A stretch of DNA of 64,000 bases, taken from contig JAJZMF010000024.1 in assembly GCA_021850325.1 (NCBI GenBank), positions 186,001 to 250,000 on the forward strand, written 5' to 3'. Numbering within the stretch: the stretch's first letter is position 1; each line of letters starts with the position of its first letter. The stretch comes from Actinomycetes bacterium. Its GTDB lineage: Bacteria; Actinomycetota; Acidimicrobiia; Acidimicrobiales; Palsa-688. Below the pieces are notes generated by a model that had not been told where the DNA came from, did no database searches, and saw only the letters and a program-made list of their open reading frames with translations. Positions 11,050-20,258 of this stretch are shown here, piece after piece. The translations under genes and the position numbers were made by a program.

Positions 11050-11063
11050 TGACAAGCTTGTCA
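11050..11063. promoter_or_regulatory. Perfect 14-base palindromic operator before the sugar kinase
   Basis: TGACAAGCTTGTCA is fully self-complementary and sits four bases from the ATG (11045) of the kinase on the reverse strand. The half-sites TGACA/TGTCA with a four-base centre recur at 20245-20258. A CAAGCT inside it could be the -10, so binding would occlude the promoter. Confidence 0.65.
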
Positions 11064-11117
11064 TGTCCGGCCGCAGGGCGAGACGACGGTGCCCGAGAGG
11101 GCCGGCGAGGGCGTGCC

Positions 11118-11747
11118 TCACAGCCGGCGCAGGACAGTCACCACCTTGCCGTAGACCACTACCTCCGAGGGCGAGAAGACCATCGGCTCCAGGCGCGGGT
11201 TGGCCGGCAGGAGCACCACGGAACCGTCCCGGCGGGAGTAGGTCTTGACCGTGGCCTCCCCTCCGGGGATACCGGCGGCCACGATGTCACCTGTGACCGC
11301 GTCGGGTTGCTGGCGCACCACGACGTAGTCGCCGTCGAGGATGCCGGCCTCGATCATCGAGTCGCCTCGGACCCGCAGCATGAACAGGCTGCCGCCGCCG
11401 GTGAAGTCCTCGGGGAGCGGCAGCAGCTCCTCGATGTTCTCCGACGCCAGGACGTCCGTCCCGGCGGCGATGTCGCCCACCAGGGGGACGTGGGCCGTGG
11501 GCCTGCGCTCGATGGCCGCCCCGGACGTGGCGTCGTAGCGGACCTCCAGGGCCCTCGGCTTGGTGGGGTCGCGCCGCAGGTACCCCTGCTTCTCGAGCGT
11601 CTTCAGGTGGGCCTGCACGGTGGAGGTGGACGCCAGGCCGACCGCGGTACCGATCTCCCGCACCGAGGGCGGGTACCCCCGCTCGCGCACCTCGGTCGCG
11701 ATGAAGTCGAGTATCTCCCGACGCTTGCCCGTCAGCAGGTCGCTCAA
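11118..11747 (-). CDS. lexA: SOS repressor LexA
   Basis: Repressor and self-cleaving serine peptidase of the SOS response; 209 residues. The N-terminal winged helix-turn-helix includes YPPSVREIGTAVGLASTSTVQAHL. The cleavage bond is Ala95-Gly96 in DIAAGTD, the nucleophile Ser130 in RGDSM and the general base Lys168 in EATVKTY. The start is TTG 11747 with AAGGAG seven bases before it. Three LexA-type boxes lie upstream, one overlapping its own -35, so it should be autoregulated. RecA, its co-protease, is encoded in the same window. Confidence 0.97.
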   Translation of the reverse strand: MSDLLTGKRREILDFIATEVRERGYPPSVREIGTAVGLASTSTVQAHLKTLEKQGYLRRDPTKPRALEVRYDATSGAAIERRPTAHVPLVGDIAAGTDVLASENIEELLPLPEDFTGGGSLFMLRVRGDSMIEAGILDGDYVVVRQQPDAVTGDIVAAGIPGGEATVKTYSRRDGSVVLLPANPRLEPMVFSPSEVVVYGKVVTVLRRL

Positions 11748-11769
11748 GGCTGCTCCTTCCTCGGTACCC

Positions 11770-11847
11770 GGTTGGCCGTTCCCCGGTTGGCCGTTCCCAG
11801 GTGGGGCTGTTCGCGGGTTGGGCCGTTCGCGGGTTGGGCTGTTCTCA
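11770..11847. repeat. Five imperfect 15-17 base repeats in the lexA leader
   Basis: Units beginning GGTTGGCCGTTCC or close variants follow one another at 11770, 11785, 11800, 11815 and 11831. They fall between the lexA promoter and its start codon, so they would be transcribed. On the lexA mRNA strand the units read roughly GGGAACGGCCAACC. Confidence 0.7.
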
Positions 11848-11885
11848 GGTGGGCGCCGCCCGGTTCGGTGGCCCCTGTGCAGGCC

Positions 11886-11914
11886 AGTCTAGGGGAGGCC
11901 CGGGCCGTGGTCAA
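11886..11914 (-). promoter_or_regulatory. lexA promoter
   Basis: Reading leftward, TTGACC (11914-11909) and TAGACT (11891-11886) are 17 bases apart. The -35 overlaps the LexA-type box at 11913-11924 by two bases, exactly as at recA. Confidence 0.7.
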
Positions 11915-18117: not shown

Positions 18118-18146
18118 AGGCTGCGTGCCCCCGGGGCGCCCGCCCG

Positions 18147-20120
18147 TCAGTGCTGGAGGTACAGGAGGGCGACCTCGTAGGGCCCGAGCGCCAGGCTGTC
18201 CACGCCGGCGTAGCTGCCCTGGTCGCCCTCGTGGCCGGCGGGGACCAGGAGGGCCTTGCCCCCCGTTGTCACGAGCGACGTCTCCACGGCAGCGGGGGAC
18301 AGGTTCATGGCCAGGTAGGCGTCCGCCTCGGTGGTGCCCAGCCGGCCCACGCTCACCAGCGGCCCCTCGGCCCGCAACGGCCGGTCCACCCCGGCTGCGC
18401 TTGCCAGCGCCGAGTAGAGCTGCCAGGTGGGTTCGGGGTTGGCGAGAGGTCGGCTGGAGGCGAAGTGCTCCAGAGGGTAGGTGCAGAGCACCATCCAGCC
18501 TTCGCCGTCGGCGTTGCGCACCAGGGCCGGGCGGCCCGCGCCATCGACTGCCAGCACCTCGGCCGAGACCGGCTCGACGGGCAGGAAGGAGCGGGCGAAG
18601 CCGTCACCACCCACCGGGAACTCGAGGCGGGTGCCTGCGGGCAGGTCGCCGAGGTCCTTCACGAAGACCAGCTCGACCGTGCTCTCGGTCACCGTGTCGG
18701 CGACGCCGTAGCGCAGCTCGTGGCTGACGCCGAAGACCTGCTCCATCCAGGGGAACCAGGGGCCGATCTGCTCGTGGCCCGAGCCGGTGAAGTAGGAGGC
18801 GTAGACGGTGGCCCCGGCCCGTGCCCGGGCCAGCAGCGCCTGGACGCCGCCCGTAGTGGCCATCTTGGCGCAGGGCAGGAGGTAGAGCTTGGGGCCTGGC
18901 TCGGCGCTGTCCGCTTCTGAGGGGGCCGGGAAGTCCCGCTCCCAGACCATGCCGACCGGCAGGTCCGCTTCGCGCGCGGCGATGTAGGACTGCATGAGGT
19001 GCGGCCTGATGTCGGCCCGCGAGTAGCGGGACCAGGTCGCCTCCTGGCGCTCCAGGTGCTCGGGTACGACGATGGCGACCTCGGGCCTGGGCCGGGCCCA
19101 CCCGGACCGGGCCAGGTGCTGCACGAGCCGGGAGAAGCGGGCCACCTCGTGGGCCTGGGGCTTGGGCCGCCCGGCGTGGTCGGTGATCCCGAAGTGCATC
19201 TCGAAGGGGTGGTGCCGGTAGGGGTCCTGGGCGGCCAGGCTGTCGTAGTCGCAGTTGTTCCAGGCCAGCCAGCCCCGTGAGCCCGCCAGGAGGGAGGAGT
19301 GCAGGACCTGGCGGTAGTAGTGGGCCGCCTGCTCGCCCGAGGCCATGTCGGAGGACAGCCCGAACTCTTCCAGTACGACCGGTTTGCCGGCCACCGCGGC
19401 CAGTTCGCAGGCGAAGGCGGCTGCCGTCATCTGGCGCAATGGGTCGTCGGAGGAAAGGTACGTGTGGGGGCCGATGAAGTCCACGGTGCCGGCCAGGCGG
19501 CGGAGGGAGAAGCCGTTGTCGTTGCCGGTGGTCTCGACCCCCCATGCCCCGTCGCCGGTGCTCACCGGCTGACGTGCACCGGCCGAGCGGAGCGCCTGGA
19601 CGAGCAGGCGCGCCCACGTAGTGACCGAGGGCTCGTCGCCGTCCCGTCCGTACAGGGGCATCTCGTTGGACAGGAGCCACCCGGCGACGGCAGGGTGGTC
19701 AGCCACCTGCCTGGCGACCTCGGCTACGAACCAGGCCTGCTGCCCGACCATCCACACGTCACGGTAGAGGTCCCGTCCCCCGCGCCACGCCGGGTCCCAG
19801 TTCTCGCCGGACATGTGGCCGACGATGAAGGTCGGTACGGTCCACATCCCCGCCTGGTGGTGAAGGTCGAGGAAGTCCACGAAACGCTCCATGACCTCGG
19901 CGTCGAGGGTCTCGGGAGCGGGCATGAAGTCAGGCCAGTAGCAGAACGAACGTGTGAGGGTGCAGCCCAGGCCCGCCAGCACGGCGAGCTCTTCGCGTAC
20001 GACGTCACCGTCATAGCGCGCCCACATCCGCGGTCCGCCCGAACGTGACCAGTAGTTGGCCCCCACCCAGACGGGCGGCCGTGACGGCCAGGGCTGTTGG
20101 CCCCTCGCAGACGTTCCCAT
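18147..20120 (-). CDS. GH5-like glycoside hydrolase (clan GH-A)
   Basis: A 657-residue protein with an N-terminal TIM-barrel catalytic domain, residues about 15-330. The acid/base glutamate is in WLLSNEMP and the nucleophile in VVLEEFGLSS. A second half, about 345-550, looks like the beta-galactosidase trimerisation/glutaminase-like fold (VVPEHLERQ, KLYLLPCAKMATTGG), and a small beta domain ends the protein. There is no signal peptide, so it should act on imported sugars. Exo-beta-mannosidase or related activity is plausible; the substrate is unknown. ATG 20120 follows GGGAG. A TATTGT -10 and two inverted repeats lie upstream, one shared with the sugar kinase at 11045. Confidence 0.8.
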   Translation of the reverse strand: MGTSARGQQPWPSRPPVWVGANYWSRSGGPRMWARYDGDVVREELAVLAGLGCTLTRSFCYWPDFMPAPETLDAEVMERFVDFLDLHHQAGMWTVPTFIVGHMSGENWDPAWRGGRDLYRDVWMVGQQAWFVAEVARQVADHPAVAGWLLSNEMPLYGRDGDEPSVTTWARLLVQALRSAGARQPVSTGDGAWGVETTGNDNGFSLRRLAGTVDFIGPHTYLSSDDPLRQMTAAAFACELAAVAGKPVVLEEFGLSSDMASGEQAAHYYRQVLHSSLLAGSRGWLAWNNCDYDSLAAQDPYRHHPFEMHFGITDHAGRPKPQAHEVARFSRLVQHLARSGWARPRPEVAIVVPEHLERQEATWSRYSRADIRPHLMQSYIAAREADLPVGMVWERDFPAPSEADSAEPGPKLYLLPCAKMATTGGVQALLARARAGATVYASYFTGSGHEQIGPWFPWMEQVFGVSHELRYGVADTVTESTVELVFVKDLGDLPAGTRLEFPVGGDGFARSFLPVEPVSAEVLAVDGAGRPALVRNADGEGWMVLCTYPLEHFASSRPLANPEPTWQLYSALASAAGVDRPLRAEGPLVSVGRLGTTEADAYLAMNLSPAAVETSLVTTGGKALLVPAGHEGDQGSYAGVDSLALGPYEVALLYLQH

Positions 20121-20163
20121 GCACGCTCCCTGTGCCGGCCCGGCCCACCCGGGCGCCGGTGCG

Positions 20164-20183
20164 ACACAATACTCGCTTTGTGT
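20164..20183. promoter_or_regulatory. Inverted repeat over the glycosidase -10
   Basis: ACACAA and TTGTGT are perfect arms separated by eight bases. The leftward TATTGT overlaps the left arm, so a protein bound here would affect glycosidase transcription. Confidence 0.5.
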
Positions 20184-20244
20184 GGCCGTCCAGCTACTGG
20201 AGCAGGTCGTGAGCCGGTGCCCGACGGACCGGCCGTCAGGTGCC

Positions 20245-20258
20245 TGACAGCGTTGTCA
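20245..20258. promoter_or_regulatory. TGACA-N4-TGTCA operator upstream of the glycosidase
   Basis: TGACAGCGTTGTCA, with arms extended by CC and GG to 20243-20260. A third half-site, GTCAGG at 20235, makes a second overlapping palindrome with CCTGAC. The same half-sites and spacing occur at 11050-11063 before the PfkB kinase. Confidence 0.6.

Follow-up and report, generated by a model that had tools for sequence, protein, structure and literature searches.

Two copies of a short palindrome, TGACA-N4-TGTCA, are located in front of a PfkB-family sugar kinase gene (pfkB; site 1) and a GH5-like glycosidase gene (site 2) in a 64,000-nucleotide stretch of an actinobacterial genome, which is called here the window. 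The question raised by this locus is whether both copies are operators of one regulon and which regulator may bind them. We analyzed the window together with the rest of its source genome (G000; 3.18 Mb in 49 contigs) and two relatives of the same genus (G001 and G002, the latter 61% complete), and the sequences make it probable that a LacI-family repressor, with its gene on another contig (C25), uses both palindromes as operators in a mannose/fructose regulon which would be repressed when the sugar is absent and whose enzymes would act in series. An earlier sequence-only reading of the window had proposed that an unseen repressor of the LacI or ROK type governs a small regulon, and this interpretation proved largely right. 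Starting from two short palindromes noticed by eye, the analysis arrived at a regulon, a likely regulator encoded on a different contig and a proposed route from mannose to fructose; the actinobacteria concerned are known here from metagenome assemblies only. Titles and abstract openings in the literature, also for the 12 papers which contain the 10-base core, gave nothing that appears to treat TGACA-N4-TGTCA or its regulon in these bacteria, RegPrecise being outside the search.

The palindrome occurs exactly twice in the window, where the sequence-only reading had located it, against a mean of 0.03 in 100 dinucleotide shuffles of the window, none of which contained two copies. Genome-wide, G000 has four exact copies, and the reversed motif, used as the genome control, has none in G000, G001 or G002. 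All four are intergenic with respect to the called genes and each lies upstream of carbohydrate genes, so the genome scan which had been proposed as a check came out in favour of the regulon; the exact sites of the relatives are intergenic and upstream of carbohydrate genes in two of three cases in G001 and in three of three in G002, the remaining G001 site lying within a gene. At least 38 other genomes also contain exact sites; the gene contexts given here are those in G000, G001 and G002. Perfect inverted repeats with the 5-N4-5 layout are common in the window, as 40 families were seen at least twice and 27 were expected from a first-order Markov simulation, and therefore the repetition of a palindrome by itself is weak evidence. 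TGACA is the sole repeated family of this kind with all its copies between called genes, and also the sole one having at least three A/T per half-site, which arose in one of 100 simulations.

Both sites lie in control regions of carbohydrate genes, as was claimed, with the correction that the gene just upstream of pfkB is lexA. Site 1 sits in the 72-base lexA-pfkB gap, and its half-sites of six bases each equal the consensus exactly (TGACAA/TTGTCA). Site 2 is an even palindrome with a central CG upstream of a sugar gene, which is the form of a LacI-type operator; it lies in a divergent gap, also upstream of a rightward gene (start about 20463, + strand, 204 bases away) which we take to be DUF3040-like. 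The coordinates of all features are collected in the table.

Coordinates of the palindromes, genes and related features (window positions unless a contig of G000 is named)
Feature	Location	Strand	Remarks
Operator-like palindrome TGACAAGCTTGTCA (site 1)	11050..11063	.	4 bases upstream of pfkB ATG, in the lexA-pfkB gap
Operator-like palindrome TGACAGCGTTGTCA, central CG (site 2)	20245..20258	.	124 bases upstream of glycosidase start at 20120
Conserved TATTGT, candidate -10 of glycosidase promoter	20166..20171	-	invariant in G000, G001 and G002
PfkB-family sugar kinase, best read as fructokinase	10023..11045	-	Pfam PfkB 139.2 bits
GH5-like glycosidase, probably acting on beta-mannosides	18147..20120	-	Pfam Cellulase PF00150 25.4 bits, cut-off 23.5
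lexA, next gene upstream of pfkB; context, outside the claimed regulon	11118..11747	-	NCBIfam TIGR00498 226.8 bits, above cut-off
LacI-family gene	G000 C25:139929-140969		divergent from D-mannose-isomerase-like gene, TGACAACGTTGTCT upstream
Exact site	G000 C17:107646		586 bases upstream of sugar ABC transporter operon; PadR-like gene (by eye) on the other side
Exact site	G000 C17:127302		77 bases before DeoC/LacD-type aldolase

The window sites are retained in the relatives. In G001 the same TGACAAGCTTGTCA again stands 4 bases before the pfkB orthologue (70% identical protein), inside an 18-base block shared exactly with G000 and within the stretch ATGACAAGCTTGTCAGTC[C/G]ATGA, and the gap is otherwise mostly diverged; a pfkB orthologue was not found in the 61% complete G002, so this comparison rests on the one relative having the orthologue. 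Upstream of the glycosidase, TGACATCGATGTCA is present in both G001 and G002, about 117 and 119 bases from the start, in the same divergent gap with the DUF3040-like gene. In the three-species alignment of site 2, 12 of the 14 columns are invariant against 30% of the other columns (columns 101-300), one more 14-column stretch (columns 101-114) being equally conserved; the half-sites and the central CG are kept and the bases flanking the CG vary. By its position and conservation site 1 also appears to work like an operator. Exact conservation of the window sites is restricted to the genus (two of two relatives for the glycosidase, one of one for pfkB).

The search for a regulator led to the LacI-family gene on C25. 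G000 has 20 LacI genes, and the C25 gene alone has a site with at most two mismatches to the consensus TGACAACGTTGTCA close by. Its product carries an N-terminal helix-turn-helix domain (PF00356, 61.3 bits) and a periplasmic-binding-like sugar domain (PF13377, 92.6 bits), both above cut-off, and TGACAACGTTGTCT lies in the gap that separates this gene from a divergently read member of the N-acylglucosamine 2-epimerase family, the D-mannose-isomerase-like gene of the table, a layout which is repeated in G001 (C50). Homologues were surveyed in 397 genomes of the order with at most five candidates scored per genome, so that some may be missing, and 25 matches were obtained (L186 was dropped from the rows because its helix was not found). 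Counting the C25 gene itself, all eight rows at 100, 81, 67, 64, 54, 53, 53 and 52% identity carry the operator upstream, either exact or altered at one or two bases. Among the other 17 rows, eight have a site with at most three mismatches, two have only AGAYATCGATGTCT, six have none and one was unreadable. The homologues L128 (71%) and L132 (69%) of Acidimicrobiaceae and L129 (Actinobacteria, 68%) have TGACAACGTTGTCG upstream; L129 was taken as the same genome as L164 (G017) because of identical neighbouring proteins, and was left out of the counts and of the matrix described below. The operator upstream of the regulator gene is therefore kept in the close homologues (eight of eight at 52% identity or more, plus L128 and L132). 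In L128 and L129 the LacI homologue is divergent from a sugar ABC transporter, followed in L129 by FGGY kinase, Dak and aldolase genes, which makes a case of a regulator's operator kept across genera while the target genes differ. The unseen repressor has in this way found a good candidate, a LacI gene with the same operator beside a D-mannose-isomerase homologue on another contig, but the regulon exceeds the two genes first proposed.

An independent recovery of the sites was obtained with a weight matrix derived from ten sites in front of LacI genes, of which the C25 site of G000 is one and the other nine, that of L169 included, come from other genomes; the window contributed none. On the window this matrix ranks site 2 first (21.9 bits) and site 1 second (17.2), the third match (14.4) being inside a gene. 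Relaxed searches were compared with controls: TGACANCGNTGTCA with one mismatch allowed has 13, 11 and 17 sites in G000, G001 and G002 against 3, 0 and 1 for the reversed controls, and TGACAACGTTGTCA with up to two mismatches has 16 sites in every genome against 0, 0 and 1. In G000 eight of the 13 TGACANCGNTGTCA sites, TGACAACGTTGTCT being one of these eight, are between genes and five inside; its 16 TGACAACGTTGTCA sites comprise eight intergenic ones, five of them at the sugar genes of the regulon, and eight in genes. Each relative has nine intergenic and four in-gene TGACAACGTTGTCA sites among the 13 of 16 examined. In-gene matches with one or two mismatches were treated as chance. The intergenic G000 matches at C31:183093 and C32:202510 have no evident sugar link, and C24:17573 is called intergenic in G000, its counterparts falling inside genes.

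The enzymes give the regulon its proposed substrate. The kinase belongs to the PfkB superfamily by its Pfam match, and its solved relatives include the fructokinases 7fca (4.6e-39) and 7cf8 (7.5e-39), its two better PDB matches, 4u7x and 4wjm, being labelled Ribokinase:Carbohydrate kinase, PfkB. The glycosidase, a remote member of GH5, matched no NCBIfam model; its PDB relatives are the endo-beta-mannanase 7bob (1.7e-24, best), ScGH5_18, BlGH5_18 and the exo-beta-1,4-mannosidase 6gvb. Its E153 (SNEM) and E252 (EEFG), which we take to be the catalytic pair, align with glutamates of ScGH5_18. It is like the GH5_18 beta-mannosidases and 7bob in the catalytic domain and both glutamates, and unlike them in being longer (657 residues) and in its weak Pfam score, and the best match is labelled endo-beta-mannanase and not GH5_18. 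The C25 isomerase-like protein comes closest to D-mannose isomerase; its H177, H249 and H380 stand opposite histidines of YihS (2afa) in the alignment, and all three presumably belong to the active site. It agrees with the AGE-family D-mannose isomerases of YihS type (PMC7762179) in family, length and the three aligned histidines, and the spacing of 72 between H177 and H249 is that of His179 and His251 in the published enzyme.

From the observed sites, their conservation and the observed link between LacI homologues and the operator, we infer binding, repression, an inducer and the enzyme activities as follows. The C25 LacI protein would bind TGACAACGTTGTCA-like sites in the promoter region which its own gene has in common with the isomerase gene, at the transporter with its polyol/sugar cluster, at the glycosidase and at pfkB, and would hold these genes down when the sugar is absent. 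The inducer would be mannose or its product fructose, whose accumulation may free the operators. The GH5-like enzyme would cut beta-mannosides and release mannose, the isomerase would convert mannose to fructose, and PfkB would convert fructose to fructose 6-phosphate; the gene families fit this chain of glycosidase, mannose, isomerase, fructose and PfkB, and the regulon is read as a mannose/fructose one. The idea that the kinase phosphorylates the very sugar released by the glycosidase stood in part, as the families fit a chain of release and phosphorylation, but the released and the phosphorylated sugar probably differ (mannose and fructose) and are joined by the isomerase. The operator ending just before the pfkB start codon fits a simple block of transcription start. 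At the glycosidase the operator is 73, 63 and 64 bases upstream of the TATTGT element in G000, G001 and G002 (counted by eye), so that action there would require looping, a blocked upstream activator or an unrecognised promoter; the difference of about one helical turn suits a protein on one face of the helix and does not distinguish repression from activation. Scans of the lexA-pfkB and glycosidase gaps for sigma-70 promoters and terminators gave no promoter and no terminator.

The arrangement corresponds to a LacI system with negative action: operators lie in upstream gaps, one of them in front of the regulator gene, and the targets make up a pathway. The LacI survey of Ravcheev et al. 2014 (PMC4052901) places most known sites of the family 30-140 bp upstream, describes five mannose groups and calls Actinobacteria underrepresented. 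The ManR regulons of that survey are alike in their even palindromes, in an operator upstream of the repressor gene and in targets of sugar catabolism, and the glycosidase and C25 LacI sites fall within 30-140 bp upstream as most known sites do. The even operators of the survey are 16-22 nucleotides long, against 14 positions with clear conservation here. With these features the regulon adds a case to a well-known type of bacterial switch, and its oddity is the GC-centred pfkB site.

Several results weigh against the assignment to the C25 repressor or against its sugar. Site 1 is an even palindrome with the centre GC, whereas in the survey (PMC4052901) 1173 of 1251 regulators with even palindromes have a CG centre and 49 another one; unlike the survey regulons it also lies only 4 bases from a start codon. 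It is the weaker member of the proposed regulon owing to this centre. On other G000 stretches, which were chosen for having matches, in-gene sites of 24.4, 21.1 and 18.9 bits outscore site 1 and three tie with it at 17.2, so the matrix alone would not single out site 1 genome-wide. In other genera no intergenic site with at most two mismatches was seen beside nine further pfkB homologues (L007-L015) or four glycosidase homologues (L038-L041), G017 included, although its LacI orthologue carries the operator; the nearest one is AGACAACGTTATCT (three mismatches), upstream of a LacI-pfkB pair in G021 (L012). The homologues L175, L177 and L180 (41-45% identity) have the C25 recognition helix VSLKTVSRVVN yet no site in 460 upstream bases. 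Distances are also long, as 257 bases separate the C25 operator from the called isomerase start and the transporter sites are 469 and 586 bases from the transporter start in G000, nearer to a PadR-like gene there and to a hisE-like gene in G001 and G002 (names by eye). A second LacI gene (C17:118019-119005) inside the transporter cluster could share targets. As to the enzymes, the best NCBIfam model of the kinase, fructokinase PRK09434, gives 133.1 bits against a cut-off of 450. The isomerase-like protein, unlike curated D-mannose isomerases, stays below the cut-off of their model (NF051846, 400.3 against 600 bits), and the YihS-type protein 7ag4 is also labelled sulfoquinovose isomerase.

These points leave room for other explanations. 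The glycosidase site alone might belong to the LacI regulon, the pfkB palindrome being recognised by another regulator or acting as a structural element where the pfkB message begins; the GC centre fits this, as does the conserved block at pfkB, which extends to the start codon, the site overlapping the expected ribosome-binding position. We hold it unlikely, because both six-base half-sites are exact, the independent matrix ranks the site second in the window, and pfkB adjoins a mannose-6-phosphate-isomerase-like gene in G004, G022 and G017 and a LacI gene of the same branch in G021, which ties it to such control. Both sites might instead be true operators which are bound by another LacI paralogue, above all the C17 one, or shared by both regulators. 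The C17 LacI gene sits among five operator-like sites, a related palindrome family TGACWCCGGWGTCA occurs twice in its cluster and once each in G001 and G002, and helix and operator are not strictly coupled, as L175, L177 and L180 illustrate. This sharing is nevertheless unlikely, since the C17 helix is VSQKTVSRVYN and differs from that of C25, the C17 SDR-LacI pair is preceded by TGACACCGGAGTCA with no near-consensus site in the 350 bases upstream of the LacI gene, and close C25 homologues keep the operator in other genera (L164, L165, L128, L132).

Site 2 could in principle act on either gene of its divergent gap, which is retained in G001 and G002, but that it serves the DUF3040-like gene instead of the glycosidase is very improbable, the glycosidase being closer (124 against 204 bases) and the other exact sites preceding carbohydrate genes. 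Chance, that is two unrelated palindromes chosen by eye, would draw on the 40 families which repeat in the window and on the motif having been picked after reading; it is hardly credible in view of the same positions in sister species, the four of four exact copies at carbohydrate genes and the recovery by a matrix from outside. Some other ideas were rejected in the course of the work. A link with lexA and the SOS response was set aside as the remaining exact G000 copies adjoin sugar genes and not repair genes. Site 2 would be able to pair as an RNA hairpin, yet the occurrence of its motif also in front of LacI and transporter genes speaks for a DNA element. The sulfoquinovose pathway uses the YihS isomerase, the YihV kinase and the YihT aldolase; it is disfavoured, though the isomerase matches YihS, because the kinase gives 138 bits to 7fca against 32 to sulfofructose kinase and the glycosidases are of mannosidase type.

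Further proposed targets lie in the transporter cluster on C17. This cluster contains a ribose-type transporter, an FGGY kinase, two enzymes of the mannitol dehydrogenase family, a zinc dehydrogenase, an SDR, a DhaK/DhaL pair and an aldolase. The second palindrome, TGACWCCGGWGTCA, is at C17:108070 and 117116 in G000 (L103:10071, L104:116) and once each in G001 and G002 (L112:19005; L121:2688), upstream of the transporter in G000 and G002 and of the SDR-LacI pair in G000 and G001, and it is probably the operator of the cluster's own LacI protein (helix VSQKTVSRVYN in G000). A wider picture may be drawn, which we regard as decidedly doubtful: the LacI switch would join the unphosphorylated mannose/fructose route with a route of the transporter cluster (FGGY kinase, class I aldolase and Dak kinase, that is liver-like fructose 1-phosphate chemistry with a bacterial triokinase), and within the genus the regulator gene would have left the transporter cluster for its place beside the isomerase and have brought pfkB under its control through the unusual GC-centred operator.

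Some further observations concern the same sites and genes. A direct repeat GTCAGGTGCC at window positions 20236-20264 overlaps both ends of the site 2 core and may supply a third half-site; it was not seen in the upstream sequence of G001 or G002. In G004, G022 and G017 pfkB and lexA are separated by a mannose-6-phosphate-isomerase-like cupin gene (L007:272-1345, L009:342-1406, L010:2581-3651), with a Pfam score below cut-off in G004 and the one member compared with NCBIfam, that of G017, below the manA cut-off; G000 and G001 lack the gene at this place. An exact TGACA-N4-TGTCA site stands in G002 upstream of a gene of GH92, which we take to be an alpha-mannosidase family, and G000 and G001 gave no GH92 match; this G002 gene (contig C5, L119:504-4641) is split into two overlapping frames, by an assembly error or a true frameshift. 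In G001 and G002 the gap in front of a cold-shock-protein-like gene carries CGACAACGTTGTCG some 200 bases before the gene (L145:6199, L144:4391), and no such site is among the G000 matches with at most two mismatches to TGACAACGTTGTCA.

The LacI branch itself shows some variations. In G021 (L012:1471-3656) a LacI gene of the same branch is directly followed by a pfkB homologue (44% identical), with AGACAACGTTATCT and GGACATCGATGTCT upstream, and this pair represents, as a single operon, the pairing which we propose for the window. The homologous LacI genes of G019 and G098 (L169:1480-4007, L167:1462-3945) adjoin GH92 and GH32 genes, which suggests that the branch of the C25 gene regulates enzymes releasing mannose or fructose. 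In G001 (C139, L142:9712) and G002 (C330, L143:1750) a site AGACAACGTTGTCT separates a LacI gene, whose product has the helix VSLKTTSRVVN, from a divergently read set of transporter-like genes (named by eye), and this LacI protein appears to be a regulatory paralogue with an operator that deviates at its outermost bases.

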